A stretch of 60,594 nucleotides of DNA from an uncultured Lachnospiraceae bacterium (lineage in GTDB: Bacteria; Bacillota; Clostridia; Lachnospirales; Lachnospiraceae). The notes under the pieces were generated by a model. It saw only the letters and a list, made by a program, of their open reading frames with translations. It was not told the DNA's origin and made no database searches. Where the stretch lies: positions 1-60,594 of the forward strand of contig CADCDW010000004.1 in NCBI GenBank assembly GCA_902800325.1, in the 5' to 3' direction. Shown here piece after piece: positions 16,021 to 54,139 of this stretch. The translations under genes were made by a program, and so were the position numbers. Each line of letters begins with the position of its first letter. Position 1 is the first letter of the stretch.

Positions 16021-16067
16021 CTTTTTGTGCAATATTAACAAAAAAATAAAAAATTATCTAAAATATG

Positions 16068-18023: not shown

Positions 18024-18040
18024 TTTGCTCACAAAAATAA

Positions 18041-18081: not shown

Positions 18082-18131
18082 TATTTAAATTTATTATTTT
18101 TAATCTTTATTACTGAAAGGAAACGCCTCTT

Positions 18132-18917
18132 ATGAACATTGATGTGGATATTCTTGAAAAACTGCTTTATTCTGTAGTTTTTGGATTATATGGCATAGTG
18201 GTAGGAAGCTTCCTTAATGTTTTGATTTTACGAGTCCCTTTAAAGGAAAGTATTACCTTTGAAAGGTCTCATTGTATGAGCTGCGGTCATACACTTGCCT
18301 GGTATGATTTGCTTCCGCTGTTTAGTTTTGTTTTTTTAGGTGGAAAGTGCAGATACTGTAAAGAACACATATCGTTTCAATACCCGTTAATAGAAGGTTT
18401 AAATGGCGTTTTGTACATAGTACTTTATTTAAACAAAGGTATAACGATTGTTACGATACTTTACTGTTTGTGCAGCTCGGCTTTACTGGCTTTGAGTGTC
18501 ATAGACGCTCGCACACGGGAGATACCCGTTGGATTTAATATTTTTATATTTATTTTGGGACTGATTAGGCTTTTAACAGACTTAAGTCATTGGAGCCAGT
18601 ATGTAATCGGTTTTTTTGCGGTCAGCGGTTTTTTGTTTCTTCTTATCCTTGTTACCAAAGGAAAGGGTATGGGAGGAGGAGATATGAAACTCATGGCAGC
18701 AACCGGCTTACTATTGGGCTGGAAGCTTAATATTTTAGCATTTTTGTTGGGATGTGTGCTGGCGTCAGTTATACATCTTACGATGATGGCTATTAAGAAG
18801 GCTGACAGATATATGTCTTTTGGACCGTATCTTTCGGCAGGAATTTATATAGCAATGATATGGGGTGAACAGCTTGTAAGCTGGTACCTGAGTATGTGGG
18901 CTTTTAAGTCCTTATAA
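18132..18917 (+). CDS. pilD: Prepilin peptidase (A24 family)
   Basis: This 261-residue membrane aspartyl protease removes the leaders of the pilins encoded around it and, in many species, N-methylates them. The N-terminal domain has two CxxC pairs (CMSC, CRYC) that usually bind zinc. The two catalytic aspartates are in SVIDARTREIP (about residue 128) and in GMGGGDMKLMAATG (about residue 183). Around seven hydrophobic helices are visible. Its position directly after the major pilin supports dedication to this system. Confidence 0.94.
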   Translation: MNIDVDILEKLLYSVVFGLYGIVVGSFLNVLILRVPLKESITFERSHCMSCGHTLAWYDLLPLFSFVFLGGKCRYCKEHISFQYPLIEGLNGVLYIVLYLNKGITIVTILYCLCSSALLALSVIDARTREIPVGFNIFIFILGLIRLLTDLSHWSQYVIGFFAVSGFLFLLILVTKGKGMGGGDMKLMAATGLLLGWKLNILAFLLGCVLASVIHLTMMAIKKADRYMSFGPYLSAGIYIAMIWGEQLVSWYLSMWAFKSL

Positions 18918-18952
18918 TTAAAATCACTGATTAGCGAGGGAGGCTATAACGA

Positions 18953-20578: not shown

Positions 20579-20596
20579 TAAAGGGGGTTGATAAAT

Positions 20597-21712
20597 ATGA
20601 CACAGAATAATATAAGAGTTATTTTAATACTTCTCGCTGTTTTAGTTTTAGGCGGAGTATATATGTATGTATATAAGCCAAACACGGATGATAAGAATGC
20701 TATTGATGATGAAATCAGTACTCTTCAGTCCAGATACGATGAGCTTAAGGCTCAGGAAGTACATAGAGATGAATACGTAGCATTAACTAAAGAGTATAAT
20801 GAGAAATTTGATGAAGCAATTGAAATATTCCCTGCAACTCTCGATCAGGAAATATCTGTTATGTTTATGAAAGGCATCGAAAAAGATCAGGGAAACCTGA
20901 GAATGGATATCCAGACAGTAGGACTTGGTGAAGAAGAAAGATTTTATACGCTTGGCGGAAGTAATGTTTCTGTTGAAAGTGAATCTGATGAAGGAGAAGA
21001 GGTTGTCGCTAATGCAGATGGTTCATATGAGTGCTATAGAGCAACTTTTCCTATATCATATAAGGGTTCATATGAAGGAATAAAAGATCTTATCGACTAT
21101 ATAATGGCATACAAGTATAGAATGAATGTTACTTCATTGAATATTGCTTATGATGTGACAAATAATGAATATAATGGAACAATCACTCTTAATGCTTACT
21201 GTGTAAAGGGTGGTGACAGAGAAGCAGATAAGGTTACAACAGATGTTTCAAATGGTGTAAGCAATATCTTCTTAGGTGGTAGCGGTGCTGCTGCTCCTGC
21301 ATCAACAGGCTCAACTTCAAATGTTACTGCAAATTCAAATGATATCAAGATTACTCTTAACAATGCAGCAAACGATGCAGGTGACGGAGTTGTTGTAACT
21401 TTGGGAAATGAAGAACTTTCTTATGGTGATAATGATGTCGCAACATTAGATATAAAGATTGAAGATAAAGATGGTAAGAAGATGGCTACAGTATCTCTTA
21501 ACGGTAAAGATGTAGAGATGGATGTAAATGGTGATTCAATCGGTATATATGTTGATTCATCAGAAAGAGTAGATTCTGGTGATAAGAATGGATTGAAGCT
21601 TAATGTTTCAAATGATACTGATGTTGCTGTTGATATAAAGGTTGAAGGAGATGACAGCTCATTACCTAGATTTTCAGTAGGCAGCAAAGGTGGAACTGTG
21701 AGGGTTAATTAA
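20597..21712 (+). CDS. pilO: PilO-like pilus alignment protein with long C-terminal extension
   Basis: This 371-residue protein has one N-terminal membrane helix (about residues 8-26), a coiled coil (SRYDELKAQEVHRDEYVALTK), and a ferredoxin-like outer domain ending near residue 215 with the PilO-typical YKGSYEGIKDLIDYIMAYKYRMNV. Ordinary PilO is about 200 residues. Here about 150 more follow: an Ala/Ser/Thr linker, then a repetitive beta-rich Asp/Asn/Val segment that I do not recognise. PilO binds PilN to align the machine across the envelope. ATG 20597 is preferred over TTG 20588 because the GGGGG site is nine bases upstream of it. Confidence 0.78.
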   Translation: MTQNNIRVILILLAVLVLGGVYMYVYKPNTDDKNAIDDEISTLQSRYDELKAQEVHRDEYVALTKEYNEKFDEAIEIFPATLDQEISVMFMKGIEKDQGNLRMDIQTVGLGEEERFYTLGGSNVSVESESDEGEEVVANADGSYECYRATFPISYKGSYEGIKDLIDYIMAYKYRMNVTSLNIAYDVTNNEYNGTITLNAYCVKGGDREADKVTTDVSNGVSNIFLGGSGAAAPASTGSTSNVTANSNDIKITLNNAANDAGDGVVVTLGNEELSYGDNDVATLDIKIEDKDGKKMATVSLNGKDVEMDVNGDSIGIYVDSSERVDSGDKNGLKLNVSNDTDVAVDIKVEGDDSSLPRFSVGSKGGTVRVN

Positions 21713-21728
21713 GAGAGGATGAGGATTT

Positions 21729-23228
21729 ATGGCAAGAAAAAACAATAAAGGTTTTTCTGTAGTTGAAATTGTCATAGCCATAGCCATACTGTCGTTACTT
21801 CTTGTACCGATAGTAACTCAGATTAGTCAGACTTTAAAGACCAGCCGTATGGCAAAACAGCAGCAGTATGTCACAGACGATGCAGTTTATCTAATGGAAG
21901 ACTTTCAGAAGTCTTCCATGGACGAACTGAAGACGAAATATGGAGCTCCTGCTGAAAAGCCTGAAACTGTTGAATGTAAGATATGTGATTCAACAGGGGC
22001 AGATACAGGAAAAAAAGTCAAGTATCATGCTTACAGATATACACTTAGTAATGTAAAGATGGGACCTGAGCAAAAAGAATATTCAAGAGTTGTTATTTTA
22101 GACGATTTGGATACTGCGTTAAAAGGTTGTAATGATGGTTCCGATAAAGGTTTTAAGATGACTGAAGCAACTACTGCACCTGGCGGATTTACATTAAATA
22201 GTGAAGGCCATGCTGTTAAGTATGATGCGAATGGTTATGTTGAGAGTGCTGTGTGTGAAACTACAGAGTTAGTTAAGAATCCAAATGATGTAAACCTTGG
22301 AAATATGCAGGATATGGATAGCTCAAAGGTTGCTATAGTTCCGGGAACATCAGCAAACTTTGATGCCCAGGCTGAGAAAGCGTTTTTCTCACTCGCTATG
22401 GAGCATTTGAGACAAACAGATCCGACTGCATGGGCTCAGGCTTTGGGACATGTAAGCAGTGATAGCGTATTAAACCAGAAGTATAGTCTGGATAACAATA
22501 TCAAGCTCACAAAGGTTTATATCAATAAAGAAAATATTGATGGTAAAGATTATTATGTTGTCAGTGTAGATGTATATTATTATAACAGTGTCCTTGATGA
22601 GACATTGAGTTACAATGTATATTCACAAAAGTTCAACATGACTGAATGCCCTGCTACATATATCGAGTATCAGCCGTATGCAGCAGAGTCAAGCAAGACT
22701 GATGTAATATATGCATCAAATGAATATTTTGTGATTGATAACTATATTCCGGATGCAAAGATTTATCTTTATAAGCCATACAATGATCAGATGAAGGTAA
22801 CAAAAAATGTTGACACTTCTGACACGTCTACAGGTGAGACATTGTATAAGTTTTATACTCAGAGTACAAAGACAAATCTTGTAAAGATTCATTTGTGCAG
22901 CTTAAACAGTTATGAACTTGATGAAGAAATAACTGAAAAGAAGGAAGACGGAACAGAAGTAAAATATAAAAAGTCTTCATCGTCAGTATATACAAATATT
23001 AGTAAAGATAATTTTGATACAAGTGTTATTTCAAATACGCTTTTTGCCGATGTAAAGACTGATGATGTAGCTCATCCTAATAGAAAAGCGTATCATGGAT
23101 TAAAGTATCTTTCAGAAGATGAGAGATTCCAAAGTAGATTATATACTATAAATGTTACATTAACGCCTGTTGAAGATGAGGCGGGAAGCAATGCGGTTAC
23201 GTTTACAGGAGCAAAGGGGGAAAATTAG
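21729..23228 (+). CDS. Large minor pilin (PilV-like), 499 residues
   Basis: The leader MARKNNKG is followed by FSVVEIVIAIAILSLLLVPI, a prepilin signal with Glu at position 5 after the Gly. The helix continues into a long outer domain of about 450 residues with no recognised fold. Two CxxC-like cysteines (CKICDS, about residue 77) are in the first part. The size is far above the typical 150-200 residue minor pilin, suggesting a tip or adhesive role. The stop is followed at once by the next start codon, so it is translationally linked to the PilX-like gene. Confidence 0.75.
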   Translation: MARKNNKGFSVVEIVIAIAILSLLLVPIVTQISQTLKTSRMAKQQQYVTDDAVYLMEDFQKSSMDELKTKYGAPAEKPETVECKICDSTGADTGKKVKYHAYRYTLSNVKMGPEQKEYSRVVILDDLDTALKGCNDGSDKGFKMTEATTAPGGFTLNSEGHAVKYDANGYVESAVCETTELVKNPNDVNLGNMQDMDSSKVAIVPGTSANFDAQAEKAFFSLAMEHLRQTDPTAWAQALGHVSSDSVLNQKYSLDNNIKLTKVYINKENIDGKDYYVVSVDVYYYNSVLDETLSYNVYSQKFNMTECPATYIEYQPYAAESSKTDVIYASNEYFVIDNYIPDAKIYLYKPYNDQMKVTKNVDTSDTSTGETLYKFYTQSTKTNLVKIHLCSLNSYELDEEITEKKEDGTEVKYKKSSSSVYTNISKDNFDTSVISNTLFADVKTDDVAHPNRKAYHGLKYLSEDERFQSRLYTINVTLTPVEDEAGSNAVTFTGAKGEN

Positions 23229-26200
23229 TTGAAGAAAATAAAAAACTTATTTAAAAAACTAAAAAATAACGGCTCCAGTACCATTATGGTTGTTGTTTCC
23301 ATGGCGTTTATTGGTATAATTGTAGGAGCGCTTCTTACAGCGGCAGGGTATGCATATAGGTTAAGAATGCAGGATGTAAATGCAAGGGATAACTTCTACT
23401 ATGTAGAACAGGCGATGAATGAGATATATGCAGGTGTCGGTTCAGAGACGCTTAAGAATATGCAGGATGCATATGTATATACTGTTGAAAATATGGTATA
23501 TTATGACCTTGCAACTCAGACATATATGAAAAAAACAGACGAAGAAGCTGAAAAGATGTTTTCTGATAAGTTCATGGAGAATGTAAGTACGAATCCATAC
23601 TTCAGTGATGCCAATATTGTAGCTTCACTTGAAAAGTATATTTCAGATCCTAATGTTACCTTGGAACCAAGCAGACTTAAGGTTGAGAGAAAAGTAGATG
23701 CCAATGGTAAAATTGAACTTATCACTGTTAAGAATGTTACTCTTCAGAGAAAAGTAAAATATAAAAAAGCAATTGGTGATTATACCCAGACTATTTCAAC
23801 AGATATCGAGATAGGCAATCCGGATTTTAAGGTTTTGTTTAATTCTACCAGCGGAAGCAGTACCAATATATTTGAATTTTCACTTATTGCAGATATGGGT
23901 GTTGAAGTAGATTCGACTATGCCTGTAACCATAGCAGGTAATATCTATGCAGCAGCAGATTATTATAATAAAGATTATAATAAAAGCACATATACCAATA
24001 TGGGAGATGGAGTAACGACTCCTAAGGATGAAGATCAGGTTTTTGAAAAAACTTATTCAGACGGAGTAGAAAATGTTGATGTTAAGTACCAACATGGAAG
24101 TGTTACATCAAGAAAATATGATGGTGAAAATGCAGTTTCAAATACTTATTATAATATGCAGTCAACTATAATGAATACTACCAATGTTGCTGATGTAAAT
24201 AACAGACAATATTTTGATGGTGTTAATAAGAGAAGTATGTATTCAGGTTTCTTTGTTGATGGTACAAATGTATCCATACTTGCGGATATAGTCATTGTTC
24301 CGGGTTCTATATCAGTTATGGACAATGGATTCCTTTCAATATATGGTAAAAATGGTATGGCCATAGATGAAGCAGAAGTTTGGACTGATAATTTTATACT
24401 TGGTGGTTATAGTTCAAAAGTACCAACAAATAAAAAAGATGAAAACGATGAAATGATTTATAATTATAATGGTTCTAAAGCGGACATAAGAGCCAATATG
24501 TATGTAAGAGACGATACAGAGATTAATTCTGTTGGTTCATCATTTAAGCTTCGTGGTAAATATTTTGGATACGGAGACAGTACTTCTAAGGATAAAAGGA
24601 CTTTTGTACCTACTGTTGATCTTGAAAATTTCCAAAGAGAGTTCCTTCAGTATAATGGACACTCTCAGGTTATGGAAAACGGTAAGCCTGTAACAAAGAC
24701 TGAAAACAGAGGACATTACAACAGTAGTGCAATTATAGTTAATGGTGAAAAGTCCACATTGGATTTCACTGATGTTACATCTATTTATCTTGCGGGACGT
24801 TCATATATTGAATTATCAAAGAAAGTAGATGTTGCGGATGAAGATGAAAAAGTAACTGATTCTGATAAAAACGTACTTACCAATGTTCAGACTGTAGAGT
24901 TTAATCCTGTTAATAAAACTACAGATTCTTCAGGAAACACGGAGACTGTATTTATAAGAGATTATAAGACGGGTGAGAGTTTGTCTTTCAAGTCAAATCA
25001 GGTAGCATATATACCTATACAGTATACAGGTATTCCTACACCTGCCATAGCTCAGGATAGATCCGTATATGACTTAAATATATATGATGATTGGGGCGAT
25101 AGGGCATATGACGCAGATTTACATCCTGCTTTAAGAGGAAGTGCTTTGTTTGAAAAATACTTCCCTGAAGCAAGATTCTTAGATTCAAAAAAGGAAAAGT
25201 ATGCTATACCTTGCATTATGCAGGAAGTTTCCGGTAAGAAGTATTACTATTATGACTTTGATAGAGCATACAGATATATTGCAAGTGGTAGTGAAGGTTA
25301 TTATGCATCAGGCAGAAATCCTGTTGCTGTAAGTACTCTTGGCGCAGATTATTGTGACAACTTTGTTAAAGAGTTTCCAAGTGCAGAAGCATATGCTGCA
25401 AGCTTTATCGCTGATTATGTAAAAGAGTTGAATAACCCTGATAGTGTTATAAAGGATTATCTTACTGATATAACTGATTATGAAGGATTTGATGCGGGCA
25501 ATATTTTACTTCCTAAGTCTGATTCCACAATGTATTCAAGTGGTGCTATAACTACAAAAGAGGGTACTGATTTTAATATAGCCGTAAAAGACAGTGCTGA
25601 CTTATCTACATTATTCTCTTCAGCAAGCTATAATGTAAGTGGTTCAAGTCCGACAGCAACAGAATATTCAGATGGCCTTGAGAAAGAATATAACTATGTT
25701 AAGTGGAATCTGGGTCATATGGATGCAACTTCACTTGAAAAGAAGTATATTGATGATCTTGTATCTGATCCATCAGGTCAGTTTAGTGAAGCATCTATCA
25801 CACCGATTAATAAGTTCCTTAACTTTGATAAGATTAATTCCGTAAGAAATCTTACTCTTTCGTCAGGATATTATGCAGTTGCTTCTAATGAAACTGTAGT
25901 TGTTAATAAAACCGGTGTAGTTAAAGGTATTATATTAACAAAGGGAGATGTTGTTTTTGGAAAGGATGTTACCGGATTTGAGGGATTGATAGTTTCCGGT
26001 GGTAAAATTTATATATCCAATAAACTTCAGACTATTAATGCAAGTGCAGAGATTTGTAGAGCGATTCTTAGAGAATGTCAGTTGTCAGGTGATGATGATT
26101 GTAAGGAATTCCTCAAGCTTTTCAAGGGATATGAAGGATCAGAGATTATAGAAAAAGCTGATGATGGCGAAGCAAAAACTATTGACACTATAGACTATTC

Positions 26201-26243
26201 GGATGTTGTAAGATTCAACAACTGGATGAAGAACGTAGAATAG
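23229..26243 (+). CDS. Very large PilX-like surface protein, 1004 residues
   Basis: The start is TTG, immediately after the previous stop, with a GGGGG site inside the upstream gene. A basic N-terminus (KKIKNLFKKLKNNG) is followed by SSTIMVVVSMAFIGIIVGALL, a pilin-like or PilX-like membrane helix without the position-5 glutamate. The remaining roughly 950 residues are extracellular. They are rich in Asn, Thr, Tyr and Asp, with many short beta-strand-like runs (for example SILADIVIVPGSISVMDNG, later VVVNKTGVVKGIILTKG) that suggest a right-handed beta-helix. PilX proteins in other bacteria are about 170 residues. It may be a pilus tip or cell-contact component. That is inferred from context. 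Confidence 0.65.
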   Translation: MKKIKNLFKKLKNNGSSTIMVVVSMAFIGIIVGALLTAAGYAYRLRMQDVNARDNFYYVEQAMNEIYAGVGSETLKNMQDAYVYTVENMVYYDLATQTYMKKTDEEAEKMFSDKFMENVSTNPYFSDANIVASLEKYISDPNVTLEPSRLKVERKVDANGKIELITVKNVTLQRKVKYKKAIGDYTQTISTDIEIGNPDFKVLFNSTSGSSTNIFEFSLIADMGVEVDSTMPVTIAGNIYAAADYYNKDYNKSTYTNMGDGVTTPKDEDQVFEKTYSDGVENVDVKYQHGSVTSRKYDGENAVSNTYYNMQSTIMNTTNVADVNNRQYFDGVNKRSMYSGFFVDGTNVSILADIVIVPGSISVMDNGFLSIYGKNGMAIDEAEVWTDNFILGGYSSKVPTNKKDENDEMIYNYNGSKADIRANMYVRDDTEINSVGSSFKLRGKYFGYGDSTSKDKRTFVPTVDLENFQREFLQYNGHSQVMENGKPVTKTENRGHYNSSAIIVNGEKSTLDFTDVTSIYLAGRSYIELSKKVDVADEDEKVTDSDKNVLTNVQTVEFNPVNKTTDSSGNTETVFIRDYKTGESLSFKSNQVAYIPIQYTGIPTPAIAQDRSVYDLNIYDDWGDRAYDADLHPALRGSALFEKYFPEARFLDSKKEKYAIPCIMQEVSGKKYYYYDFDRAYRYIASGSEGYYASGRNPVAVSTLGADYCDNFVKEFPSAEAYAASFIADYVKELNNPDSVIKDYLTDITDYEGFDAGNILLPKSDSTMYSSGAITTKEGTDFNIAVKDSADLSTLFSSASYNVSGSSPTATEYSDGLEKEYNYVKWNLGHMDATSLEKKYIDDLVSDPSGQFSEASITPINKFLNFDKINSVRNLTLSSGYYAVASNETVVVNKTGVVKGIILTKGDVVFGKDVTGFEGLIVSGGKIYISNKLQTINASAEICRAILRECQLSGDDDCKEFLKLFKGYEGSEIIEKADDGEAKTIDTIDYSDVVRFNNWMKNVE

Positions 26244-26254
26244 GGGTGGTGTTG

Positions 26255-26866
26255 ATGGTTAAGATTAAAGAGAGAATTAAAAAAAGCTTAAGAGATAACG
26301 GTGGATTTTCTTTAACAGAGCTTATCATAGTTATAGCTATGATACTTATAATGACTGTTGCTTCATTTATTTCTTTGACTATCATGCATAGTGCCAAGGC
26401 AAAGGAAGCAGCAAGCTCATTTGAAAACTCACTTGCCGAGACCATAAGCTTATCTAAAAACAATGGTGTAGATAAGAATCAGAATAATGTGATTGATTCT
26501 GATGAGGAGAAATATTCTATAGGACTTAAGATATATAAGATAGGTCAGAAGTATTATCTTCAAAAATGTATATGTGAAAAGAGTCCTACAGGAAAGTATT
26601 CTGATTCGGGTTTGGATGCCACTGATCCTTATGTTAAATCTATAAATGAAGCTTCAGGAAAGGGTGTGTGCCTATCTTCATATGTAGATATAAAATTCTA
26701 TGATTTAGACGGCAACGACGCAAGCGCTGATACTTATGTTATAGCTTTTAATAGAAAAGGTGAATGTGTACTCGGATATGGTAAATATGAGTTTAGAAAA
26801 AAGACCTCAGGTGATAAGATAGTTACGGTTTCTGTTAACAAAAATGGAAGCTATATATCAAGGTAG
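26255..26866 (+). CDS. Minor pilin, GspH/FimT-like
   Basis: This is a 203-residue prepilin: a basic leader ending in DNGG, then FSLTELIIVIAMILIMTVAS with the conserved Glu. ATG 26255 is chosen over two GTG and one TTG codons just upstream because the GGGGTGG ribosome site lies at the normal distance. The outer domain has three cysteines (CICEKS region and GVCLSS). It lies between the PilX-like gene and another minor pilin, so it belongs to the set of four accessory subunits that probably prime pilus assembly. Confidence 0.8.
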   Translation: MVKIKERIKKSLRDNGGFSLTELIIVIAMILIMTVASFISLTIMHSAKAKEAASSFENSLAETISLSKNNGVDKNQNNVIDSDEEKYSIGLKIYKIGQKYYLQKCICEKSPTGKYSDSGLDATDPYVKSINEASGKGVCLSSYVDIKFYDLDGNDASADTYVIAFNRKGECVLGYGKYEFRKKTSGDKIVTVSVNKNGSYISR

Positions 26867-26883
26867 ATAAGGAGTGATGAACG

Positions 26884-27756
26884 TTGACGAAAAAAACAAA
26901 AAGCAATAACGGTTTCACCCTTATAGAATTGGTTATTGCTATAGCGATGCTTGCCTTTATCATGACAGCGGTTAGTGCCCTTATGGGAAGCAGCGTATTA
27001 AGCTTCAGAAAAAATAAGGCAAATATAAGCATACAAAATTCTGCACAATCTGCATATGATAAGCTTTCAGATACTATTATGCAGGCAAAGAGAGTAGTGA
27101 TAATTGGTTATCAATGTAGCGCAGATGTAGACTTTGATAATGCAAAACCGGGTGATGCTGCAGGCGGAACATTTACATCTCATTATTATGTTCCTGATGA
27201 GGCTACCAAGAAAGAGCTTACAGATTCAGGAATTACAGAGACAAATATAATTATTTTTTCTGATATGAGTCCTGCAGATAAGGATACGAAGATATATATT
27301 CAAAAGATGATTATAGATATCTCCGTTCCGATTGATGAGATAACGGCAGTTAATAGCAGTTATACGGAATCAACAACAGGCGTAGAAGTAGATGACAAAT
27401 TGCATGCCGGAAAAAAAGTTAAGATAAACAAGATAAGTGATGGCGTGTATGATGCAAATGATACAATGAGATGTACTTTTACCTTTGATGGAAAGAACAT
27501 GTATTATGAAAGGCAATATGCTCTTCAGATAGGTAAAAATGATGTAATGGGTGGTTCGTTTAATGAAAACAATTTATTTTCAAACGTTTTTAACTATGTT
27601 ACATCAGGTACAACTGATATAAGCGGTTGTGTTGCAACAGTTGACTCAAAGAACGGTGCCATTGGTTTGAACCTTTACTTCTATGATAAGAAAATAAGAT
27701 ATACAACAAATGGAATGGTTAAGTTAAGAAACTCAGATGTTTTAGAGAATAATTAA
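26884..27756 (+). CDS. Minor pilin, PilW/GspJ-like
   Basis: This is a 290-residue prepilin with leader MTKKTKSNNG and helix FTLIELVIAIAMLAFIMTAV including the conserved Glu at position 5. The start is TTG, nine bases after AAGGAG. The region SIQNSAQSAYDKLSDTIMQAK after the helix resembles PilW/GspJ proteins, in which a helix with QxxA/D residues follows the signal. The head domain is beta-rich and of unknown fold. It is followed after 20 bases by the giant secreted protein. Confidence 0.8.
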   Translation: MTKKTKSNNGFTLIELVIAIAMLAFIMTAVSALMGSSVLSFRKNKANISIQNSAQSAYDKLSDTIMQAKRVVIIGYQCSADVDFDNAKPGDAAGGTFTSHYYVPDEATKKELTDSGITETNIIIFSDMSPADKDTKIYIQKMIIDISVPIDEITAVNSSYTESTTGVEVDDKLHAGKKVKINKISDGVYDANDTMRCTFTFDGKNMYYERQYALQIGKNDVMGGSFNENNLFSNVFNYVTSGTTDISGCVATVDSKNGAIGLNLYFYDKKIRYTTNGMVKLRNSDVLENN

Positions 27757-27776
27757 GAAAGGGTGGTAAAAGCGAA

Positions 27777-30700
27777 ATGAAAAGAAACATGAAACTTAAA
27801 GTAACTGCATTAGTTGCGATGCTTTTTATGGCTATTGCCGTAACTTTCTTGTCTTTCTCTCATGCGGATGAGGATATACAAGATGATTCGTTGCTTACAG
27901 CTGATGCTACAACTGCGGTTGATGTTGGTTCAAAGACTAATATTGATTACATAATTATGAACTCAAACTCAACAGACCCTGATGTTGATCCGCATTATAA
28001 TATTGTGGAGATATATTCAGATACAGCTTCTGGTTTGGAAGGTTTTGCAGAAAATCTTGATTTTGAAAAATATGTCATAGATGGTTATTCAACACTTGGT
28101 GAAGCCATGAAGGGTGGAATGGTAAACTATAAGGCATATAAAACAACATCAATTACAAATGATAGTGAAGCTGAACTTATTGAAATATCTAATGCTGATC
28201 TTATATATCTAAATCAAGGCGATGTACCATTTGGAGTGGGAAATGATATATGTGAAAAGCTATATGATATATTGCATACTTATGCAGTTGGTGATTATAA
28301 GCCACTTATTATCAATAATGAAAGTAAATCTGGTGATAATAGTGAGGATGATACAAATACTCAGGAATCTATGGCTACATTGGCAATAGATGTTTTTTAC
28401 AGGGGTATGTATTATTATACTTTTGCATGGGATACATCTAAACAGTCTGTAGATGATTTTCTTACACATAATAATGGTTCTATGTATCTTGGTATAAATG
28501 GTAGGACACAGGAAGCAAAGAATAAGTGGACTACTCTTGTTAGTGAAGAAAGAGATACTGATGGTAAAGTTATAAAAGATGCTGAAGGTAATACTAATGT
28601 CCTTGATACTAAGAAGATGGCAAAGTTCCTTGTTTTAAGTGGCGAAGGTACTGCTGAAAAGAAAATGAGAGAGGAGCTTATACCAAGCACATTGGAAGAA
28701 TATAGTGTTTCAGGTTATCGCTCTGTTGAGTCAGAAGATGAATATACTTTGCCGACAGGTTCTAAATCAAAAATATACAGGACTGAAAATGAAGATGGAA
28801 GTAGTACAAAAATAAAAACATCTATTTATAATGCAAAATACACAACTCCTGATTTGATTCAGGTGGATGAAACAACTCTTGCAGATATAGAAGCCGGAAC
28901 TGTTGATTTGGGAGCTTATGATTTTATATTGATTGATGAAACTGCTGTTGGTGACATTTCAACCGATGCATACAATAAGTTGGCAGGTGCTATGTATGCA
29001 AGTGTAAGTATTGTTTATCCGGCAACTATGGGGGTTGCAGTTACTTCAACAAGTACAACTTCTCATATAGATAATCAGGAATATAATTATATTGAATTGT
29101 ACTATATGGTTGCGACAGCTGATAATCTTGCCAGATATGATAACATAATGGTTACAAGCAAGAAAGAGATTGATACTATTATAGCAGGTAAGGAGACAGG
29201 AGCTGGAGCTATAGCAACTCTTATTAATAAGTCAACTTACAGAGGAATAGGTGGTAAGGGTAGTTCTTCAAGTATGTATACGGTACTTGAAATACAACCA
29301 TGTTATCCTATAGATACTAATTTGGCAGAGAGCACTATAGGTGGAAAGGTAAAGGGGGTATATTATACCATTCCTGCCAATGTAGTTAATGATGTTGATA
29401 AGGAAAAACTCCCAAGAGATGAAAATGGTAATATTGTTGTTGAGTATTATGATTGGGAGTTATCTAAGAATAAGATAGCAGATGCAGTAGGTATTGATCC
29501 AAGTCAGGTTAATATTGTGCATATGTCTACAGAGGAGCTCGCTGCAAGTAAAGAACCAATTCTTGGAAATTATGATTTGGTTTATATCGGAGGCAATACA
29601 AGTGCATTTAAGACTGATTTAGATAAATGGCAAAGTATTGCTAACGTTGGAGGTAAAGGTAATAATGTAGGTAAAATTGGTGTAAATTCTACTGGTAAGT
29701 TGCATTTGCCTATATACACTATGTATTCGCATAACGGCGATATGGTTATTATTGATTCGGGTCCATTCGCTTCGGGTACAAGAGGAAATGGAACGCCGGT
29801 TCCTAAGGTTAAAGTTAACGGGACCTATCAGGATACGTTTGCATTATTAAATGGTAATGACATATCATTTGATAGACTTGAAGAACTTAAAGATTATGTT
29901 GATAAAGGTATGCCGCTTATAGTGGAAGAAAGTGCTGCAACTGCATATGAGAGTGTTGTAAAAAATGGATATTTACAAAATGATCTTGATCCAGATTCTA
30001 ATATGTGTAAGTTCTTTAAGTATTGTAATGATAAAGATTATATTACTGAAACTGGAGAAACAAGTGATAAGTCTAAAACAGTTCTTTGGAAAGTTAAAAA
30101 TACATCTGATGATGGATTGTTTAGCTCTGATGTAGGTTTAAAAGTGAATACTTTGGTAAAGGAATCTTATACTAGGCCAAAGCTAACAGTTACTTCTATG
30201 CCGGTTGTGTATAATTTCTATGATAAGAGCACAAGACTCGAGGACTCAAATCTTAAGTTCGTTTTTGAGGTAGCTGGTTCGTCAGATTATGAAACTAAAT
30301 TTTATATAGATGATGATGCAAACAGCTTGTTTGAGCCTACTGAAGATATGACAGATAGTGCAGACGAAGTAACAAAAAATTCGTTAAAGATTACATTAAA
30401 CAACTTCTTTGGCCCTGTTTATTGGAAACTTGAAGTGAAAGATAAAGACTCTGATATTACATCATATGTTACAGGTCTTTCTTATATCAAGAATACTTCA
30501 GGTGCAAAACAAACAGTAAGAATTCTTCAGATTATGCCTGGTTATTCTACTGTTGATAATGGAAAGACGGTGGCTAAAGTTAAAGGTCAGTATACTACGT
30601 CTTCTCCAGAAGGTGCTCAAGGTGAGGATACGCTTTTCTTCTGCCCTGTATGTCAGAGAGGTTTTGAGTTATACGAGTATTATCCTATAGCTAATACTAA

Positions 30701-32936
30701 TTCACATATCGGTATGTGGTATTATGGTACAGGAGCATATGAACAGAGCAGTACTAATCCTAATGAATCAAGGACTTCTCAGAAACCATATCTTGGAAAA
30801 CATGAGCATGTATTTGGTATTCCGTGGTATGATAGTACGCTTTCTGTTGATGGATATACAGGTATAGATGATTGGTCAACAAATCTTGCTGATGACGTAA
30901 GTGATTTGTATGATTTTGATCTTGACATAATGACTCGTAGTGACTTTGAACAGAAAGCTGTTGATATTGCAAAGGCATATGATTTTAGTGCTTTGAGTAT
31001 TGATGAAAAAAATAGCATTGTTAATTCTTATTCGATTGATGCTAGTGATTCAAATTATGTGGAGTGGACTAAACTTACAGATGTAGATGCAAAGCTTAAA
31101 TTTATTACACAGAGACACTATGAAGATTTAGCAGACGATGAATATCAACTTTATCTTGATGCCAAGGCGGAGGCTGATGCTTTAATTCCAGCATTGGATG
31201 CAGAACTTGATTTTGTAGTAAGCGAAGATGTTGGAGGCTTTGGAAAGGATTTAAGTCTTGTTCAAAAGACTAAGAATTACGCTGATATCTTTTCAGCAGT
31301 TAATAGTTCAGGTAGTGGTAGTATGCGCTATCAATATATGCATAACTCTCAGCTTAGTGCGTTGGCAAATGCATATTTTGATTACAGAGACAAGAAAGAT
31401 ATAGAAATAACGCATCATCAATTATATAAGGATTACTTGAGATATACACATCCTGATAACTGGTTGGCAGGGTCGTATGATATGATTGTAATTGGTGCAT
31501 CTGACAATTTTGCGCTGGATGATATATCTAATCCGCAGGCTTTGGCAGATTTAAAGGATTATATAGATCCTGAGAAGTATAATGGAAATATGCTTTTGTT
31601 CCACGGAGTCCTTTCACCATATGTTGATTCAGGAGCTGCAAGTTTTACTGCTACACTTAGAGAATACTTTGGTATGGATAAGAACAGAGGTCTTTCAAAT
31701 GATAATCCTAAGGCTGGTGAGTATTATGTCAATTATACTTCGTCTGATCCTGATAGGTATTTTATGACTAATCTTTCATTCAAGCCTATTACGGAAAATG
31801 GTAGGTTTGGAACATGGAGTAAAGATTTGTTTGAAGATCTTTCCTTTGGTAGTTATGCTTATTCGCTTCGACCAACAAAGTATTTGACAAAGGTTGCTTA
31901 CACCGATGCGGTTAATTTATCGTTTTCCAACCCTGGAATATCACAGTATAAATATGCGGTATCTGATTATACAACTATTTCTCAGTACTCGAGAAGCTCA
32001 AATGCTGACTATATGACTAATTTAAAAGCTGAAAAGAGTGGAATGAATTTTGGTACCGATAAAGCATCGCAAAATAATGTAGGTATTGTAACACAGTATC
32101 CATTTACACTAAGTGATGAACTCAATATATCTCCTACGCATCCACAGGAGTATGCACTTGAGTTAGATAATTCTCAAATGACAGTATGGTATTCACTTGC
32201 TGGTGGTACAAATGAAGCTAAACAGCATGGTAATAGTGGTTATTATTCGAATTCGTCTCTTTATGCAGCATCAAGAAATGATGGAGGAGATAATTACTTC
32301 ATTTACTCATTTGGAAATGTTAACTATTGTGGTGCCGGTCATGCAAAGGTAACAGGTGTAGGTGTAGATAATAATGATGAGCGTAGGCTTTATATCAATA
32401 TTATAGTTAACTCAGTTAGAAAGTCTGTTAAGCAACCGGGTATTAATGTTTATGATTACAAGACAAATAATAAAAAGAGTAAAGATGGAACCAACTATTT
32501 AATCGAGGTTAAGAATGATGATGATTGGCCAGAGTTTAGTTTTAATGCAACGGTTGATACATCTTCTGATCCAGAGAATAAATTAGAGCGTGTAAGGATT
32601 TACTATGATTTGGATTTTCTGACTGCAACAGGAAACAAGGATGCATATGTAAATGATAAATATCATATACTTATAGCTGATATGAGTAAGGATAAGAATG
32701 GTAATCCGCTTAAATCTGGAACCATATATGATGTTGGTAGGGAGTTGGCGTTATTGCAGCTTAAACCAGAATATTTCGAACCATATAATCAGGAATACAC
32801 ATATATAGTTATTGAGGTAACTGATTCATTGGGTAATATAGCTTACCAGCGTATCAAGATTAAGCTTTTGCCATACTTGTTCGAGATGACTCAAAATAAT
32901 ATTAATCAGGTTATTGACATGATTGATAAGATTTAA
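27777..32936 (+). CDS. Giant secreted protein with three related modules, probable pilus-associated surface protein
   Basis: This is a 1719-residue protein with a Sec signal peptide (basic start, hydrophobic core VTALVAMLFMAIAVTFLSF, likely cut after SHA near residue 30) and no obvious anchor. A similar beta-strand opening recurs: YNIVEIYSD (about 62), YTVLEIQPCYPI (about 501) and VRILQIMPGY (about 914). Each is followed by an acidic-end strand of the type ADLIYLNQGD (140), YDLVYIGGN (598) or YDMIVIGASD (1233). This pattern suggests repeated Rossmann- or glutamine-amidotransferase-like modules and resembles DUF5057 proteins, as far as I recall that family. A CPVC then H-H cluster (about 954-1015) could bind zinc. 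As last gene of the pilus locus it may be a tip adhesin. That is inference. Confidence 0.6.
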   Translation: MKRNMKLKVTALVAMLFMAIAVTFLSFSHADEDIQDDSLLTADATTAVDVGSKTNIDYIIMNSNSTDPDVDPHYNIVEIYSDTASGLEGFAENLDFEKYVIDGYSTLGEAMKGGMVNYKAYKTTSITNDSEAELIEISNADLIYLNQGDVPFGVGNDICEKLYDILHTYAVGDYKPLIINNESKSGDNSEDDTNTQESMATLAIDVFYRGMYYYTFAWDTSKQSVDDFLTHNNGSMYLGINGRTQEAKNKWTTLVSEERDTDGKVIKDAEGNTNVLDTKKMAKFLVLSGEGTAEKKMREELIPSTLEEYSVSGYRSVESEDEYTLPTGSKSKIYRTENEDGSSTKIKTSIYNAKYTTPDLIQVDETTLADIEAGTVDLGAYDFILIDETAVGDISTDAYNKLAGAMYASVSIVYPATMGVAVTSTSTTSHIDNQEYNYIELYYMVATADNLARYDNIMVTSKKEIDTIIAGKETGAGAIATLINKSTYRGIGGKGSSSSMYTVLEIQPCYPIDTNLAESTIGGKVKGVYYTIPANVVNDVDKEKLPRDENGNIVVEYYDWELSKNKIADAVGIDPSQVNIVHMSTEELAASKEPILGNYDLVYIGGNTSAFKTDLDKWQSIANVGGKGNNVGKIGVNSTGKLHLPIYTMYSHNGDMVIIDSGPFASGTRGNGTPVPKVKVNGTYQDTFALLNGNDISFDRLEELKDYVDKGMPLIVEESAATAYESVVKNGYLQNDLDPDSNMCKFFKYCNDKDYITETGETSDKSKTVLWKVKNTSDDGLFSSDVGLKVNTLVKESYTRPKLTVTSMPVVYNFYDKSTRLEDSNLKFVFEVAGSSDYETKFYIDDDANSLFEPTEDMTDSADEVTKNSLKITLNNFFGPVYWKLEVKDKDSDITSYVTGLSYIKNTSGAKQTVRILQIMPGYSTVDNGKTVAKVKGQYTTSSPEGAQGEDTLFFCPVCQRGFELYEYYPIANTNSHIGMWYYGTGAYEQSSTNPNESRTSQKPYLGKHEHVFGIPWYDSTLSVDGYTGIDDWSTNLADDVSDLYDFDLDIMTRSDFEQKAVDIAKAYDFSALSIDEKNSIVNSYSIDASDSNYVEWTKLTDVDAKLKFITQRHYEDLADDEYQLYLDAKAEADALIPALDAELDFVVSEDVGGFGKDLSLVQKTKNYADIFSAVNSSGSGSMRYQYMHNSQLSALANAYFDYRDKKDIEITHHQLYKDYLRYTHPDNWLAGSYDMIVIGASDNFALDDISNPQALADLKDYIDPEKYNGNMLLFHGVLSPYVDSGAASFTATLREYFGMDKNRGLSNDNPKAGEYYVNYTSSDPDRYFMTNLSFKPITENGRFGTWSKDLFEDLSFGSYAYSLRPTKYLTKVAYTDAVNLSFSNPGISQYKYAVSDYTTISQYSRSSNADYMTNLKAEKSGMNFGTDKASQNNVGIVTQYPFTLSDELNISPTHPQEYALELDNSQMTVWYSLAGGTNEAKQHGNSGYYSNSSLYAASRNDGGDNYFIYSFGNVNYCGAGHAKVTGVGVDNNDERRLYINIIVNSVRKSVKQPGINVYDYKTNNKKSKDGTNYLIEVKNDDDWPEFSFNATVDTSSDPENKLERVRIYYDLDFLTATGNKDAYVNDKYHILIADMSKDKNGNPLKSGTIYDVGRELALLQLKPEYFEPYNQEYTYIVIEVTDSLGNIAYQRIKIKLLPYLFEMTQNNINQVIDMIDKI

Positions 32937-33025: not shown

Positions 33026-34048
33026 TTAAATATTTATTTTTTTAATCATATTTGTCAATTCTTCAACTTTTTTTGTTAATATGGCAATAGTTTCGTCTTT
33101 TTCACTTAATTTGTCGAAAAACTCAGCAGTGACCTGATCTCTAACTTCAGCAGTGACCTGATCTCTAACTTCAGCAGTGACTTGATCTCTAACTTCAGCA
33201 GTGACCTGATCTCTAACTTCAGCAGTGACCTGATCTCTTAGTTCTTCTTTAACTTCAGCAGTGACCTGATCTCTTAATTCTTCTTTTGCTGCCCAAAATA
33301 TTCTGTCAGCTTCTGTAACTATTACATTTCCGCCCATTTTATTCATCAACTCCTTTTCATTGATATTTCCGTTTGCTACATGCCTTATAATCATTTTTAT
33401 ATAATTTCGCAGGTTTTCATATGCATATCCATCAATTAAAGATTTGTCAACAGCATTTTTTAGGAATGAAATATAATAATCAAGATCTCTCTTTACTTCT
33501 TTTAATTCTGTTTTACCTGCATTTTCATCCTTAATTATACTTTAATATCTTAGTACATAGAATGGTATAAGCACATATAGTTTCTTCTCAATTATTTCTT
33601 CTTTTGTAAAATTGCTAAGTAAGATATTGTCTGCATCATATCTAACTGTTTCACCGTTAGGAAAAATAAAAGTAATTTCAGTTTTTTTAGGTGTTTCAGA
33701 ATTACATCTTATGTAGATAACAGAGTAGAGTGGCATATTTATTGTAAGTTTTCCGTTCTCGATAATTGCTTCCTGTCTCGCAGTTAAAAATGTGTATTCG
33801 GCAATTCTTAAAGCCATTGAACCATCATTATAACTTTGACATTCAAGAAGATATTTATCGTCTCTTATCTTAATAATAAAGTCAGATATCTTTCTCTCTA
33901 CATCCGGTGTATCTTTTGATTCATAAGAATTTGTTATATATTCATCGGTTGGTAATAGTTCAAAGACTTCATCTAAAGAATAATCTTTGTCGAATTTGTA
34001 GTTTAATAAAGGTATAAAAAGTTTGGTATCAGTATAAACATTATTTTA
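33026..34048 (-). pseudogene. Broken Rpn/PD-(D/E)XK nuclease-transposase family gene
   Basis: On the minus strand one frame encodes a member of the Rpn-type nuclease family common in Lachnospiraceae. From about 34,045 it reads NNVYTDTKLFIPLLNYKF, then SLDEVFELLPTDEYITNS. The nuclease core follows: DFIIKIRDD, then YLLECQSYNDGSMALR, with the D and ExQ catalytic residues. Then come RIAEYTFLTARQEAII and, later, an RDQVTAEV repeat and a coiled-coil end. It has no start codon (a stop precedes NNVY at 34046-34048) and an in-frame TAA at 33542-33544 after FYVLRY, beyond which the frame continues unbroken. Both lesions make a working protein unlikely. The longest intact pieces are 33542-33817 and 33026-33394. 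Confidence 0.8.
33124..33279. repeat. 24-bp in-frame tandem repeat inside the Rpn pseudogene
   Basis: Copies begin at 33124, 33148, 33172, 33196 and 33220, with a sixth at 33256 after a 12-base insertion. They encode the eight-residue unit RDQVTAEV. One copy differs by a single base. Near-identity at DNA level points to recent expansion by slippage. Confidence 0.9.
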
Positions 34049-50774: not shown

Positions 50775-51899
50775 ATGAAAAAGGTAAAAAAGGAAACCTA
50801 CAGAGCATTACTTTTATTGGTGCTTATATTTGTTCTTTCGGTATTAAATATAGTCATTAAGGATTTTTATATAGATGACAATACCAATCCTTTGCAAATT
50901 GATGTTGAGGATGTGTCAAGGGCAAATGCGGATAATGTAAGATATGAAAATCCGGCTGACATATCGAAAAAAAGTGTAAAGCCGTCGGGTTTACCTATCG
51001 GTATATATGTTAAGACTGAAGGCGTTATGGTGGTTGATACGGGCGTGGTTACAGGCTATGATGGCAGATTGTATTCACCCTGTAAGGATATTTTATATTC
51101 GGGAGATTATGTAGTAGAGATTGATGGTGAAAAAATACAAGATAAAAAAAGTCTCGTAGAGGCTGTTGACAGTAGCGATGGTAAAACTATAGATGTCGTA
51201 GTAATAAGAGATAACAATAAAATGAATTTTGAAATAGAACCGGTTAAGACTGAAGAAGGTAATTATAAACTTGGTCTTTGGGTTAAAGACGATATATCAG
51301 GTATAGGTACGCTTACATTTGTTGATGAGGATTCTTTTGGAGCTCTTGGACATAGTATAAATGACAATGACACAGGTATTATATTTAAGATATCAGACGG
51401 AGCAATCTATAATACAAATCTTATCAATATAGTAAAACCGGAAGGAAACAATCCCGGAAGGCTTGAGGGAATAATAGATTATTCTTCTACCAATGTAATT
51501 GGAAGGATTACCGGCAATACTGAGTATGGTATATCTGGATTTCTGACTCAAAATTTTGATTATTCAAGTCTGAGTGATGATTGGATGAGTATGGCTTCCA
51601 AAGAAGACGTAAATATAGGACCTGCCTATATTCTTTCTGCGGTAAGAGGCACACCGGAGTATTATGAGGTAAATATTACCAATGTCAATTATGACAGAAA
51701 ATACGGAAATAAAAGTATAGAGCTTGAGATTACAGACCCAAGACTTATTAATATAACAGACGGAATTGTTCAGGGGATGAGCGGTACACCTATTATACAG
51801 AATAATCGACTTATAGGGGCAATAACACACGTTTTTTTAAATGATTCGACAAAAGGTTACGGCATTTTTATCGAATATATGCTTGAAAAAAATGACTAA
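50775..51899 (+). CDS. spoIVB: SpoIVB family serine peptidase
   Basis: This 374-residue protein has an N-terminal membrane anchor (LLLVLIFVLSVLNIVI), a PDZ-like domain (YSGDYVVEIDGEKIQDKKSLVEAV), and the S55 peptidase domain with GIGTLTFV, the catalytic His in FGALGHSIND, and the catalytic Ser in IVQGMSGTPIIQNN. In Bacillus SpoIVB is made in the forespore and triggers cleavage of pro-SigK in the mother cell. It lies just before spo0A in nearly all endospore formers, as here. Confidence 0.95.
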   Translation: MKKVKKETYRALLLLVLIFVLSVLNIVIKDFYIDDNTNPLQIDVEDVSRANADNVRYENPADISKKSVKPSGLPIGIYVKTEGVMVVDTGVVTGYDGRLYSPCKDILYSGDYVVEIDGEKIQDKKSLVEAVDSSDGKTIDVVVIRDNNKMNFEIEPVKTEEGNYKLGLWVKDDISGIGTLTFVDEDSFGALGHSINDNDTGIIFKISDGAIYNTNLINIVKPEGNNPGRLEGIIDYSSTNVIGRITGNTEYGISGFLTQNFDYSSLSDDWMSMASKEDVNIGPAYILSAVRGTPEYYEVNITNVNYDRKYGNKSIELEITDPRLINITDGIVQGMSGTPIIQNNRLIGAITHVFLNDSTKGYGIFIEYMLEKND

Positions 51900-52007: not shown

Positions 52008-52802
52008 ATGAAAACCAGAGTATTAATTGTAAGACATGATTCAAAAAGCATCGAGAACATAAGAAAAAAGTTGGAAGGTAAAAATGATATTGAAATAGTT
52101 GGAACGGTAAATGACGGAAAAGTGGCTATATCATCTATAAAAAATAATTCGCCGGATGTTGTTATAATTGATTTGCTTTTACCTAATTATGACGGAATAG
52201 CTGTTATGGATGAGATTAACAAGCTTGGAGACAGGAAGATAAAATTTATGGTCAAAGCCAATACAAGTCAGATAAAATTTATAGAATCTGCTTGCAAGGG
52301 CAGATATAAGAACATATTGGTTAATGTTGTCGATGAAAGAGTGGTTGATTATGATCTTTATAATGAGATATTGAGTATCAAATCATCCAAAGCAAAGGAT
52401 GTAATGATTATTACAAAAGAAGAAAATGAGGATAATGAGCGCAACAGACTTGAGATAATGGTTACGGATATAATTCATGAAATAGGAGTACCGGCACATA
52501 TAAAGGGTTATCAATATTTAAGAACGTCTATTATAATGTCTGTAAATGATATGGAGATGCTCAGCTCGATTACAAAACAGCTATATCCTACTATTGCTAA
52601 AATGTACAATACTACACCTTCCAGGGTTGAAAGGGCTATAAGACATGCAATTGAGGTTGCCTGCAGCAGGGGAAAAGCAGATACTATAAACGAATTGTTT
52701 GGTTATTCTATAGGTGCAGGAAAGGTAAAACCAACCAATTCTGAATTTATAGCTTTGATAGCAGATAAGATTAGATTAGATAAAAAGGTTAAAAGTGCTT
52801 AG
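52008..52802 (+). CDS. spo0A: Spo0A paralogue 1, degenerate receiver domain
   Basis: This is a 264-residue Spo0A-family master regulator. The C-terminal sigma-SpoA effector domain (about residues 150-260) is fully conserved: [38 protein letters not shown] and [16 protein letters not shown] as recognition helix region, then [14 protein letters not shown]. The receiver is altered. The phospho-acceptor Asp55 remains in [13 protein letters not shown]. The acidic pair that binds Mg2+ (DD in Bacillus) is Arg9-His10 (VLIVRHDS), the switch Thr is Val (FMVKAN), and the conserved Lys-Pro is replaced (NILVNVVD). Phosphorylation by a standard relay therefore looks unlikely. It occupies the canonical place after spoIVB. 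The loss of function is inferred. Confidence 0.88.
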
Positions 52803-52812
52803 AGATATATAG

Positions 52813-52820
52813 TTGTCGAA
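52813..52820 (+). promoter_or_regulatory. Candidate Spo0A-binding box between the two spo0A copies
   Basis: TTGTCGAA contains the core 0A box TGTCGAA, placed 21 bases upstream of the -35 at 52842. Confidence 0.5.
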
Positions 52821-52841
52821 CCTGTTGCGGAAAGAAAACTA

Positions 52842-52870
52842 TTGACTAATGGTGACATTAAATATATTAT
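52842..52870 (+). promoter_or_regulatory. SigA-type promoter of spo0A copy 2
   Basis: TTGACT (52842-52847), 17 bases, TATTAT (52865-52870), within the 153-base gap between the paralogues. Confidence 0.65.
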
Positions 52871-52955
52871 CTCATTTGGCTTTTGTGAGAATGATAATTA
52901 TAGAATGCACAAAAATTCAAAAAATAAATATTAAATTCAGTTAGGAGATGACTTT

Positions 52956-53912
52956 ATGAATGACTCTAAAGTTAATATTTTAATAGCAGATTCAAAACAT
53001 GAATTGCTTACAGAACAAATAAAACATGAAATCGAGAATGTTAATATTATTTATGCGGATGATAAAGGCAGTGATATATGGGGAATGGTTAAAACCAATA
53101 AGCCTGATGTTTTGCTTATGGATGCATTTAAATATAAAGTTGATGGATTTGAGGTTGTTGAACGTATAAGGTCAGATAATGATTTAAAGAAAACAAAGAT
53201 AATATTACTTACATCTGTCGGTACACCGGGTATAATCAATATGGCCTTTGGAATTGGAGCTGACTATTATATTATGAAGCCATGTGATCCGGTTATACTT
53301 TCAAAGAGGCTGGAACAAATGGTACATATGAAAAATAATGAAAAACGATTTAAAGAAGTGGGAAAGCTGTTTATTGAAAATGGTCTGGAATATTTAAACT
53401 ATGATAAAGACGATGTTTTCGGTGATGATAATTATGATGATATATATTACACAAGTGATCATATAGATGATATGGATGTAGTTGATATAAAAGATAATGA
53501 TGATAAAAATAATATAAATGATAATAATGATGATAATGATAATAATATTTCACTAAATACTATAGAAAGTGATGTAACGGATATTATAAGGGAAATAGGA
53601 ATCCCTGCCAATATTAAAGGATATCAATATATACGAGAAGGTATAATTATGGCTATATTTGATATGAACGCGTTAAATTTCGTTACAAAGCTTCTTTATC
53701 CTACTATAGCTAAGAAGTACAAAACAACTTCCAGCAGTGTGGAAAGGGCTATAAGACATGCTATAGAAGTAGCATGGGGAAGAGGAAATTTAGAACGGAT
53801 TGAGGAAATGTTTGGATATACTGTAAGTGCAGGTAAAGGTAAACCGACCAATTCAGAGTTTATTGCACTTATTTCAGATAAATTAAGATTGGATTATAAG
53901 ATTAAAGTATAA
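52956..53912 (+). CDS. Spo0A paralogue 2, near-canonical receiver and long Asp/Asn linker
   Basis: This is a 318-residue second Spo0A. The receiver keeps one acidic residue of the pocket (ILIADSKH, Asp12), phospho-acceptor Asp56 ([12 protein letters not shown]), switch Thr86 (IILLTSVG) and Lys108 (YYIMKPCD), so it can probably be phosphorylated. Between the domains is a linker of nearly 50 residues (151-198) made almost only of Asp, Asn, Tyr and Ile. The effector domain (about 204-316) closely matches copy 1, with [16 protein letters not shown] and [17 protein letters not shown]. Which copy is orthologous to Bacillus spo0A by descent is unclear. By receiver chemistry this one is the better candidate for the active regulator. 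It has its own promoter and is followed by a terminator. Confidence 0.88.
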
Positions 53913-53940
53913 AAAAATGAGGCTTATGCCTCATTTTTTT
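53911..53940. terminator. Bidirectional terminator after spo0A copy 2
   Basis: Stem 53911-53923 with 53928-53940, loop TTAT, A run on one side and T run on the other. It serves spo0A copy 2 and the convergent small gene. Confidence 0.92.
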
Positions 53941-54139
53941 ATTCGATAACAAAGCTTCCTGTTTCGTCGTCATTGAATACATAATAAGCTGTATTTTCTT
54001 CCGGCTTAACATATAGATTTAATGATTTTAAATCAGAAGCTTTTTTACCGCTTTTTGTCCAGATTGATTTGGCCTCTTTAATAAGAGTGTCCTGATCTAT
54101 CTGTTTTCCGTAATATTCAACATAAAAAGTTGACTTCAT
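53939..54139 (-). CDS. Small conserved protein, DUF6465-like
   Basis: This is a 66-residue protein: STFYVEYYGKQIDQDTLIKEAKSIW, then KASDLKSLNLYVKPEENTAYYVFNDDETGSFVIE. The YVKPEENTAYYVFN segment resembles small Lachnospiraceae proteins annotated DUF6465, from memory. Function is unknown. The gene is credible because of a strong GGGGGG ribosome site eight bases before the ATG, a terminator after it, and a compact alpha/beta pattern. It is cytoplasmic, with no signal or membrane helix. Confidence 0.75.
   Translation of the reverse strand: MKSTFYVEYYGKQIDQDTLIKEAKSIWTKSGKKASDLKSLNLYVKPEENTAYYVFNDDETGSFVIE

Follow-up and report, generated by a model that had tools for sequence, protein, structure and literature searches.

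A conserved tandem pair of Spo0A paralogues with incomplete phosphorylation sites in Lachnospiraceae

A genus of Lachnospiraceae carries two adjacent, full-length spo0A genes, neither of which encodes a complete canonical receiver site. This pair with incomplete sites is real, conserved, and unexpected for the field, and it is a new variant of Spo0A control. We describe it from a window of 60,594 nucleotides (the whole stretch of DNA analysed, from an uncultured member of the genus), in which the upstream gene is hereafter named copy U (copy 1 of the first-pass annotation) and the downstream gene copy D (copy 2). Phosphorylation of Spo0A is regarded as the gate through which all endospore formation passes, and a lineage that has sporulation genes but no complete site on its Spo0A pair makes this gate testable. 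Lachnospiraceae are major gut and rumen bacteria, and their spores matter for host-to-host transmission.

Locus structure and receiver residues

The two tandem spo0A frames described in the first-pass annotation are both intact (Table 1). Both proteins match the Pfam domains Response_reg and Spo0A_C, and both exceed the whole-protein cut-off of 200 bits of the NCBIfam Spo0A model TIGR02875 (U: 241.4 bits; D: 250.4 bits). Their effector domains share 67% identity over 117 residues, and their receivers 29% over 93. Because spoIVB lies directly before U, U is the positional orthologue of spo0A in the window; spoIVB likewise adjoins spo0A in B. subtilis. This gene precedes U in the window and in 10 other genomes of the genus, and was undetected at the other fetched loci, several of which have short flanks.

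Table 1 Features of the spo0A locus, in window coordinates.
Feature	Coordinates	Strand	Description
spoIVB (SpoIVB peptidase)	50775..51899	+	TIGR02860, 309.6 bits over its cut-off; Pfam Peptidase_S55, 252 bits
Perfect 0A box TTGTCGAA	51845..51852	-	163 bases before U, within the 3' end of spoIVB
Copy U	52008..52802	+	Spo0A with dismantled receiver (Arg9, His10, Ala84, no Lys-Pro; Asp55 kept) and canonical effector; recognition helix SRVER
Perfect 0A box TTGTCGAA	52813..52820	+	Intergenic between U and D, upstream of D
Candidate sigma-A-like promoter of D	52842..52870	+	TTGACT, 17 bases, TATTAT; 10/12 matches; 22 sites in the region against 14.3 expected, weak alone
Copy D	52956..53912	+	Divergent Spo0A paralogue; Asp12, Asp56, Thr86, and Lys108-Pro109 kept, Ser13; recognition helix SSSVER (Arg211 to Ser); long Asp/Asn-rich linker
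Terminator-like hairpin	53909..53942	-	Just past D; near-palindromic, T runs on both sides; 1 found against 0.6 expected

With B. subtilis Spo0A as the reference for residue numbering, Arg9-His10 of U correspond to positions 10-11 and Asp12/Ser13 of D to positions 10/11. In the alignment, U retains Asp56; its positions 10-11 are Arg-His, its switch Thr is replaced by Ala, and Lys-Pro is missing. The first-pass annotation had read the Arg-His pair, the retained Asp55, and the missing Lys-Pro correctly, and had erred at the switch Thr, which aligns with Ala84 and not with a Val. D has Asp10, Ser11, Asp56, Thr86, Lys108, and Pro109 in the same numbering, including the four residues previously ascribed to it (Asp12, Asp56, Thr86, and Lys108). 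Two replacements in D were absent from the earlier description: Ser at residue 13, the second Asp of the acidic pair, and Ser at the equivalent of Arg211. The Spo0A_C domain of D scores 143.9 bits, yet its Arg211 is replaced, and the effector of U has Arg211 (SRVER). In receivers such as CheY, the second of the two acidic Asp residues serves as a metal ligand. Because D also has Ser13, a complete receiver site (acidic pair, Asp56, Thr/Ser, and Lys-Pro) is found in neither copy: U has only the Asp, and D is without the second acidic residue.

Judged by these residues, membership of the phosphorylation-activated Spo0A proteins is claimed for neither copy. The idea of a conserved Spo0A pair with divided features is borne out by the residues and by their conservation; in U, phosphorylation of the usual kind is very probably precluded, and the DNA-binding domain stays canonical. 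Both window copies retain the phospho-acceptor Asp and are therefore not aspartate-less receivers. The Asp/Asn-rich linker of D (positions 53340-53560) exceeds that of most of the genus by about 50-60 residues, a feature common to its closest relatives (loci L028 and L029).

Perfect TTGTCGAA sites number five in the window against 1.9 expected, which is weak evidence from the window alone. Across the genus, 15 of 27 distinct intergenic regions carry the TGTCGAA core ahead of D, compared to a mean of 0.3 and a maximum of 4 in 500 shuffles that ignore relatedness; upstream of U, the core is present at 9 of 24 loci (shuffle mean 1.0, largest 5, again ignoring relatedness). The start of D is placed too far downstream at three long-linker loci, where the boxes counted are still inside the true intergenic region. 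Promoter hexamers similar to those of the window were seen by eye in most aligned U-D intergenic regions of the genus. Upstream of spoIIGA, a TTGTCGAA-like site (at most one mismatch) lies at -112 to -116 of the SpoIIGA match at 12 of 25 genus loci (raw count; 25 loci used, 5 of 30 left out), and the window's own spoIIGA has no 0A box at that threshold.

Other parts of the window have features of their own. A small ORF at 33026-33394 (minus strand) encodes tandem DQVTAEVR repeats, and three perfect TTGTCGAA sites lie between 33111 and 34358. Positions 13222-32936 hold a cluster resembling a type IV pilus or pseudopilus system (ATPases, prepilin-like proteins, and a prepilin peptidase), followed by a secreted-looking protein of 1719 aa. 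The contig end (58560-60594) has about 72% GC compared to about 36% elsewhere, cuts a MiaB-like gene that starts at 58292, and continues with unrelated ORFs; it is probably a chimeric or contaminant tail of the MAG contig.

Conservation in the genus and link to sporulation genes

A whole-genome search found Spo0A_C in 29 of 37 genomes of the genus, and the adjacent pair is present in 27 of them, always in the order U then D, which rules out chance or an assembly accident. The first-pass annotation had named absence or frameshifting of copy 1 in close relatives as evidence against its reading. U is present in these 27 of the 37 genomes, and a broken frame turned up once among them, as a stop at codon 4 (genome G012, locus L043), with no such stop seen in the other 26. 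Sequencing error, polymorphism, and real loss are all compatible with this stop (loci L043/L217). Among the ten genomes in which no pair was detected are fragmented or incomplete MAGs and five that lack a detected SpoIVA; one genus genome has D alone, at a contig end.

All upstream copies readable at the pocket (25/25) have Lys/Arg-His; the remaining two of the 27 are one cut by a contig end and the G012 copy, which has Asn-His. An acidic residue at position 11 was found in none of the downstream copies read in the genus. D has Asp56 and Lys108-Pro109 in 21/21 aligned rows, Asp12 in at least 90%, and usually Thr/Ser at 86 (the alignments comprise 20 U and 21 D sequences, with near-identical, cut, or duplicate loci left out). 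Some genomes contain further copies: G023 has a third, unlinked Spo0A with a canonical receiver, and six genomes (G005, G006, G008, G011, G014, and G016) have an extra short, unlinked ORF with Spo0A_C only. The lack of a complete site therefore applies to the pair and not to the whole genome. These extra ORFs, of about 128-154 aa and with a divergent helix (TPTRVERCIRHAIEVG in the three read), are possibly phage-related.

Of 190-210 pairs within the genus, those usable give median dN/dS values of 0.24 (U receiver, 17 pairs), 0.26 (D receiver, 15), 0.12 (U effector, 7), and 0.04 (D effector, 16). Both genes look to be under purifying selection by this measure, and a simple pseudogene was rejected on values well below 1.

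The genus contains SpoIVA in 31 and SpoIIGA in 29 of its 37 genomes. Of the 27 pair genomes, 26 have SpoIVA, compared to 5 of the 10 others (Fisher p = 0.003), and 24 have SpoIIGA, compared to 5 of 10 (p = 0.02), by a test that ignores relatedness. Eighteen genomes reach 90% completeness with no more than 5% contamination; 15 of these have the pair, SpoIVA, and SpoIIGA, and G015 and G028 (99-100% complete) have none of the three. The remaining one, G016, a fragmented MAG, has SpoIVA and SpoIIGA with no pair detected. The pair tends to be kept or lost along with sporulation genes.

The wider clade and receiver-less Spo0A in the family

The family-wide search covered 397 genomes, with the best six candidates per genome scored, followed by targeted locus fetches; 162 sequences entered the trees (FastTree supports), with seven near-identical genus loci and identical duplicates left out. 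Proteins of the D type, which were picked by Ser or Cys at residue 211, form one clade of 39 sequences from at least 17 genera in the effector tree, a lower bound because second copies of G066, G102, G130, G157, G321, G383, and G407 lie outside the tree. The support of this clade is 1.0 on full-length sequences, 0.93 on effectors, and 0.59 on receivers. All 33 upstream partners likewise group on the full-length (0.95) and effector (0.96) trees, and show no grouping on the receiver tree. U and D are thus separate clades across 17 genera, which excludes a recent duplication within the genus.

Given the choice by residue 211, the single clade and the non-acidic residue 11 are results. Canonical single-copy Spo0A proteins (n = 63) have Asp10 in 62, Asp11 in 62, and Asp56, Lys108, Pro109, and Arg211 in all 63, so that residue 11 is acidic in 62/63 canonical compared to 0/39 D-type proteins. 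The D type (n = 39) retains Asp56 in 38 and Lys108 in 35, and has Ser or Cys for Arg211 in 39 and Arg for His162 in 35. H162R is described as a suppressor of A257V in B. subtilis (PMC9195935), indicating that site 162 matters for function. The first-pass annotation had taken copy 2 for an ordinary phosphorylated Spo0A whose threshold copy 1 retunes; this is not supported, since copy 2 belongs to a divergent clade that has lost Asp11 (39/39), Arg211 (39/39, to Ser or Cys), and mostly His162 (35/39, to Arg), and D as an ordinary Spo0A was rejected on residue 11 and Arg211. A change from Arg211 to Ser also occurs in L139 (G205) and L254 (the second copy of G407), which are unlinked and have canonical-looking receivers; L139 falls outside the D clade and is excluded from the 39, and L254 is not in the tree.

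The other 16 D-type genera have the tandem arrangement with U first in 13, and in G275, G227, and G047 the two genes are on different contigs, so U and D need not be neighbours. Eight genera have a canonical upstream partner (G198, G278, G218, G354, G294, G275, G227, and G047), two have a partly altered one (G187 and G211), and in seven it is dismantled (the window's genus, G106, G076, G142, G167, G223, and G369). The dismantled upstream clade (support 0.945, full-length tree) has His at 11 in 24 of 25 readable members and Tyr in one; this is the usable count, because the set of 24 was picked by Lys/Arg/Asn/Gly-His and its 24/24 His is by choice. Asn replaces the phospho-acceptor Asp in 2/24 dismantled upstream copies with His11, in L128, and in 1/39 D-type proteins. 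SpoIVA was found in 14 of the 16 other D-type genera and is missing from G275 and G369. It is kept in G223, where U is without Asp56 and D is without both acidic residues and Lys-Pro. From these distributions, the likely order of events is duplication, then divergence of D, and then loss of the pocket of U within a subclade. The single canonical gene, the canonical gene with D, and the pair with both members altered provide a natural series for a change in master-regulator control.

Outside the family, a class-wide search found at least 20 genomes with two matches among the matches listed, and the three outside loci read were all canonical. The statement that Spo0A is normally single-copy is largely right and needs an exception for Clostridium thermocellum, for which two unlinked homologues are described (PMC4890492, PMC3804516).

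Within Lachnospiraceae, the short Spo0A_C matches (open frames of at most 223 residues) were receiver-less Spo0A in 21 of 21 listed (L150-L169 and L250), in which a canonical effector follows a short vestige of the first strand and helix. L154 also retains the receiver end around Lys-Pro, which points to an internal deletion. SpoIVA scored over the cut-off in 19 of 20 receiver-less genomes tested compared to 0 of 4 Spo0A-negative controls. Sixteen of the 20 genomes have no Spo0A_C match with an open frame above 223 aa, and G039, G235, G256, and G123 also have long-frame matches of 38-116 bits. All 20 receiver-less genomes searched have at least one further short-frame Spo0A_C match. Because spoIVB was found at only 3 of 20 receiver-less loci, the orthology of these genes rests on sequence. 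Loss of Spo0A phosphorylation control may, on this evidence, have happened more than once.

A possible two-protein module and known systems

The architecture of the pair is well supported, and for its joint mechanism we propose the simplest joint reading: a conserved two-protein Spo0A module (probability about 0.45) in which U would read 0A boxes without phosphorylation and D would be its specialised partner. The pair would have arisen by one old tandem duplication in Lachnospiraceae, with U as the original spo0A and D as the duplicate. The receiver of U has lost the metal-binding pair, the switch Thr, and Lys-Pro, with an effector that stayed the same in kind and should bind 0A boxes without phosphorylation. 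The isolated Spo0A effector is described as binding 0A boxes in the unphosphorylated state (PMC3485338), and since the U effector is intact, U should be able to act once its receiver no longer needs phosphate. In D, the loss of the second acidic Asp and the change in the recognition helix would both be early events; this copy also has a putative promoter to itself, with a 0A box through which Spo0A activity may feed D expression. The altered helix of D together with its strong constraint suggests DNA binding with a changed preference. D may still accept phosphate because it keeps Asp56 and Lys108, and any remaining signal input would enter via D, which in the genus also usually keeps Asp10 and Thr/Ser86. 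U and D may act together at sporulation promoters, either as a heterodimer, for which Streptomyces BldM-WhiI is described as a precedent with two atypical response regulators (PMC4125116), or by neighbouring occupancy. We put at somewhat below even odds the broader conclusion that sporulation in this lineage is launched by a Spo0A pair of which neither member is a normal phospho-switch, with phosphorylation left behind. If so, the entry decision would rest on protein amounts, pairing, or a new ligand, and other Lachnospiraceae would have reached a similar end through receiver loss.

The features of D can be read in other ways. U could be constitutively able to activate sporulation, with D under 0A-box control and pairing with U or occupying its sites as a negative feedback. 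The missing metal ligand and altered helix residue are what a dominant-negative partner might have, the 0A box of D fits feedback, and in the eight genera with a canonical U a non-phosphorylatable partner could damp the signal; in addition, Spo0A R211H of Paenibacillus polymyxa is described from a strain that no longer forms spores, in which DegU is mutated too (PMC9195935). We nevertheless consider such a brake unlikely, given that no other part measured is as constrained as the D effector (median dN/dS 0.043) and that the helix of D is nearly fixed, which suggests DNA binding of its own. The same fixed and constrained helix change would suit a division of targets, in which U keeps the sporulation genes and D, through Arg211 to Ser, reads a different site and controls other genes with no joint action, as would the separation of the two genes in three genera. 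However, in the genus the pair is kept or lost together (27 adjacent pairs, and the sole D-only genome has D at a contig end), and we hold independent regulons to be improbable to much the same degree as the brake.

Less probable again, and in our view doubtful at best, is that D remains a phosphorylated Spo0A with a weakened site that carries all signalling, leaving U as a helper or relic. Asp56 and Lys108-Pro109 in all aligned genus rows of D, and Asp12 in nearly as many, would allow this. Nevertheless, the metal-ligand position 11 is acidic in almost every canonical Spo0A and in no D-type protein, and the U receiver, with a dN/dS of 0.24 and a conserved new motif, is not decaying freely. 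The same observations bear on the notion that U is merely a decaying pseudogene. One codon-4 stop in 27 pair genomes and a receiver that is looser than in canonical Spo0A are what such decay would produce, but 26 of 27 copies show no such stop, the new K/R-H-D motif is conserved, dN/dS is well below 1 in receiver and effector, and the recognition helix is the same in kind as the canonical one, making this the least credible of the explanations and a very improbable one.

The module proposed here, with U and D as partners, was compared to known systems, and the openly licensed literature searched contains no description of a tandem Spo0A pair, a dismantled-site Spo0A, or a bacterial receiver-less Spo0A. 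Spo0A of B. subtilis and Clostridioides difficile has, like U and D, a receiver and a Spo0A_C effector, a likeness extended by the TIGR02875 matches, the position of U behind spoIVB, and the nearby 0A boxes. It differs in being described as a single gene activated by phosphorylation of the receiver Asp (PMC11210211, PMC3485338), whereas here neither copy has a complete site and Arg211 of D is replaced. Clostridium (Acetivibrio) thermocellum similarly has two full-length Spo0A genes, with only one known as needed for sporulation in the cited accounts (PMC4890492, PMC3804516); those accounts, by which we set it apart, give distant locus tags (Clo1313_1409 and Clo1313_0637), so that the genes are not neighbours, and describe no loss of the phosphorylation site. 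The receiver-less Spo0A of gut phages is described as an effector free of phosphorylation control (PMC10294663), whereas U and D are chromosomal and full-length with an altered receiver. Atypical or aspartate-less receivers such as RitR and HP1043 are described with the fold kept, the pocket broken, and acidic residue 2 often lost (PMC4395418, PMC8345958); they are without the phospho-acceptor Asp or act alone, whereas U and D of the window keep the Asp. In Streptomyces, BldM and WhiI are likewise two atypical response regulators in spore development, with WhiI described as lacking the Lys and one Asp of the pair (PMC4125116). They differ from U and D in their NarL/FixJ effectors, unlinked genes, and a heterodimer that is shown there and proposed here (PMC4125116); the degenerate phosphorylation pocket in at least one partner that marks the BldM-WhiI type is found in U and D.
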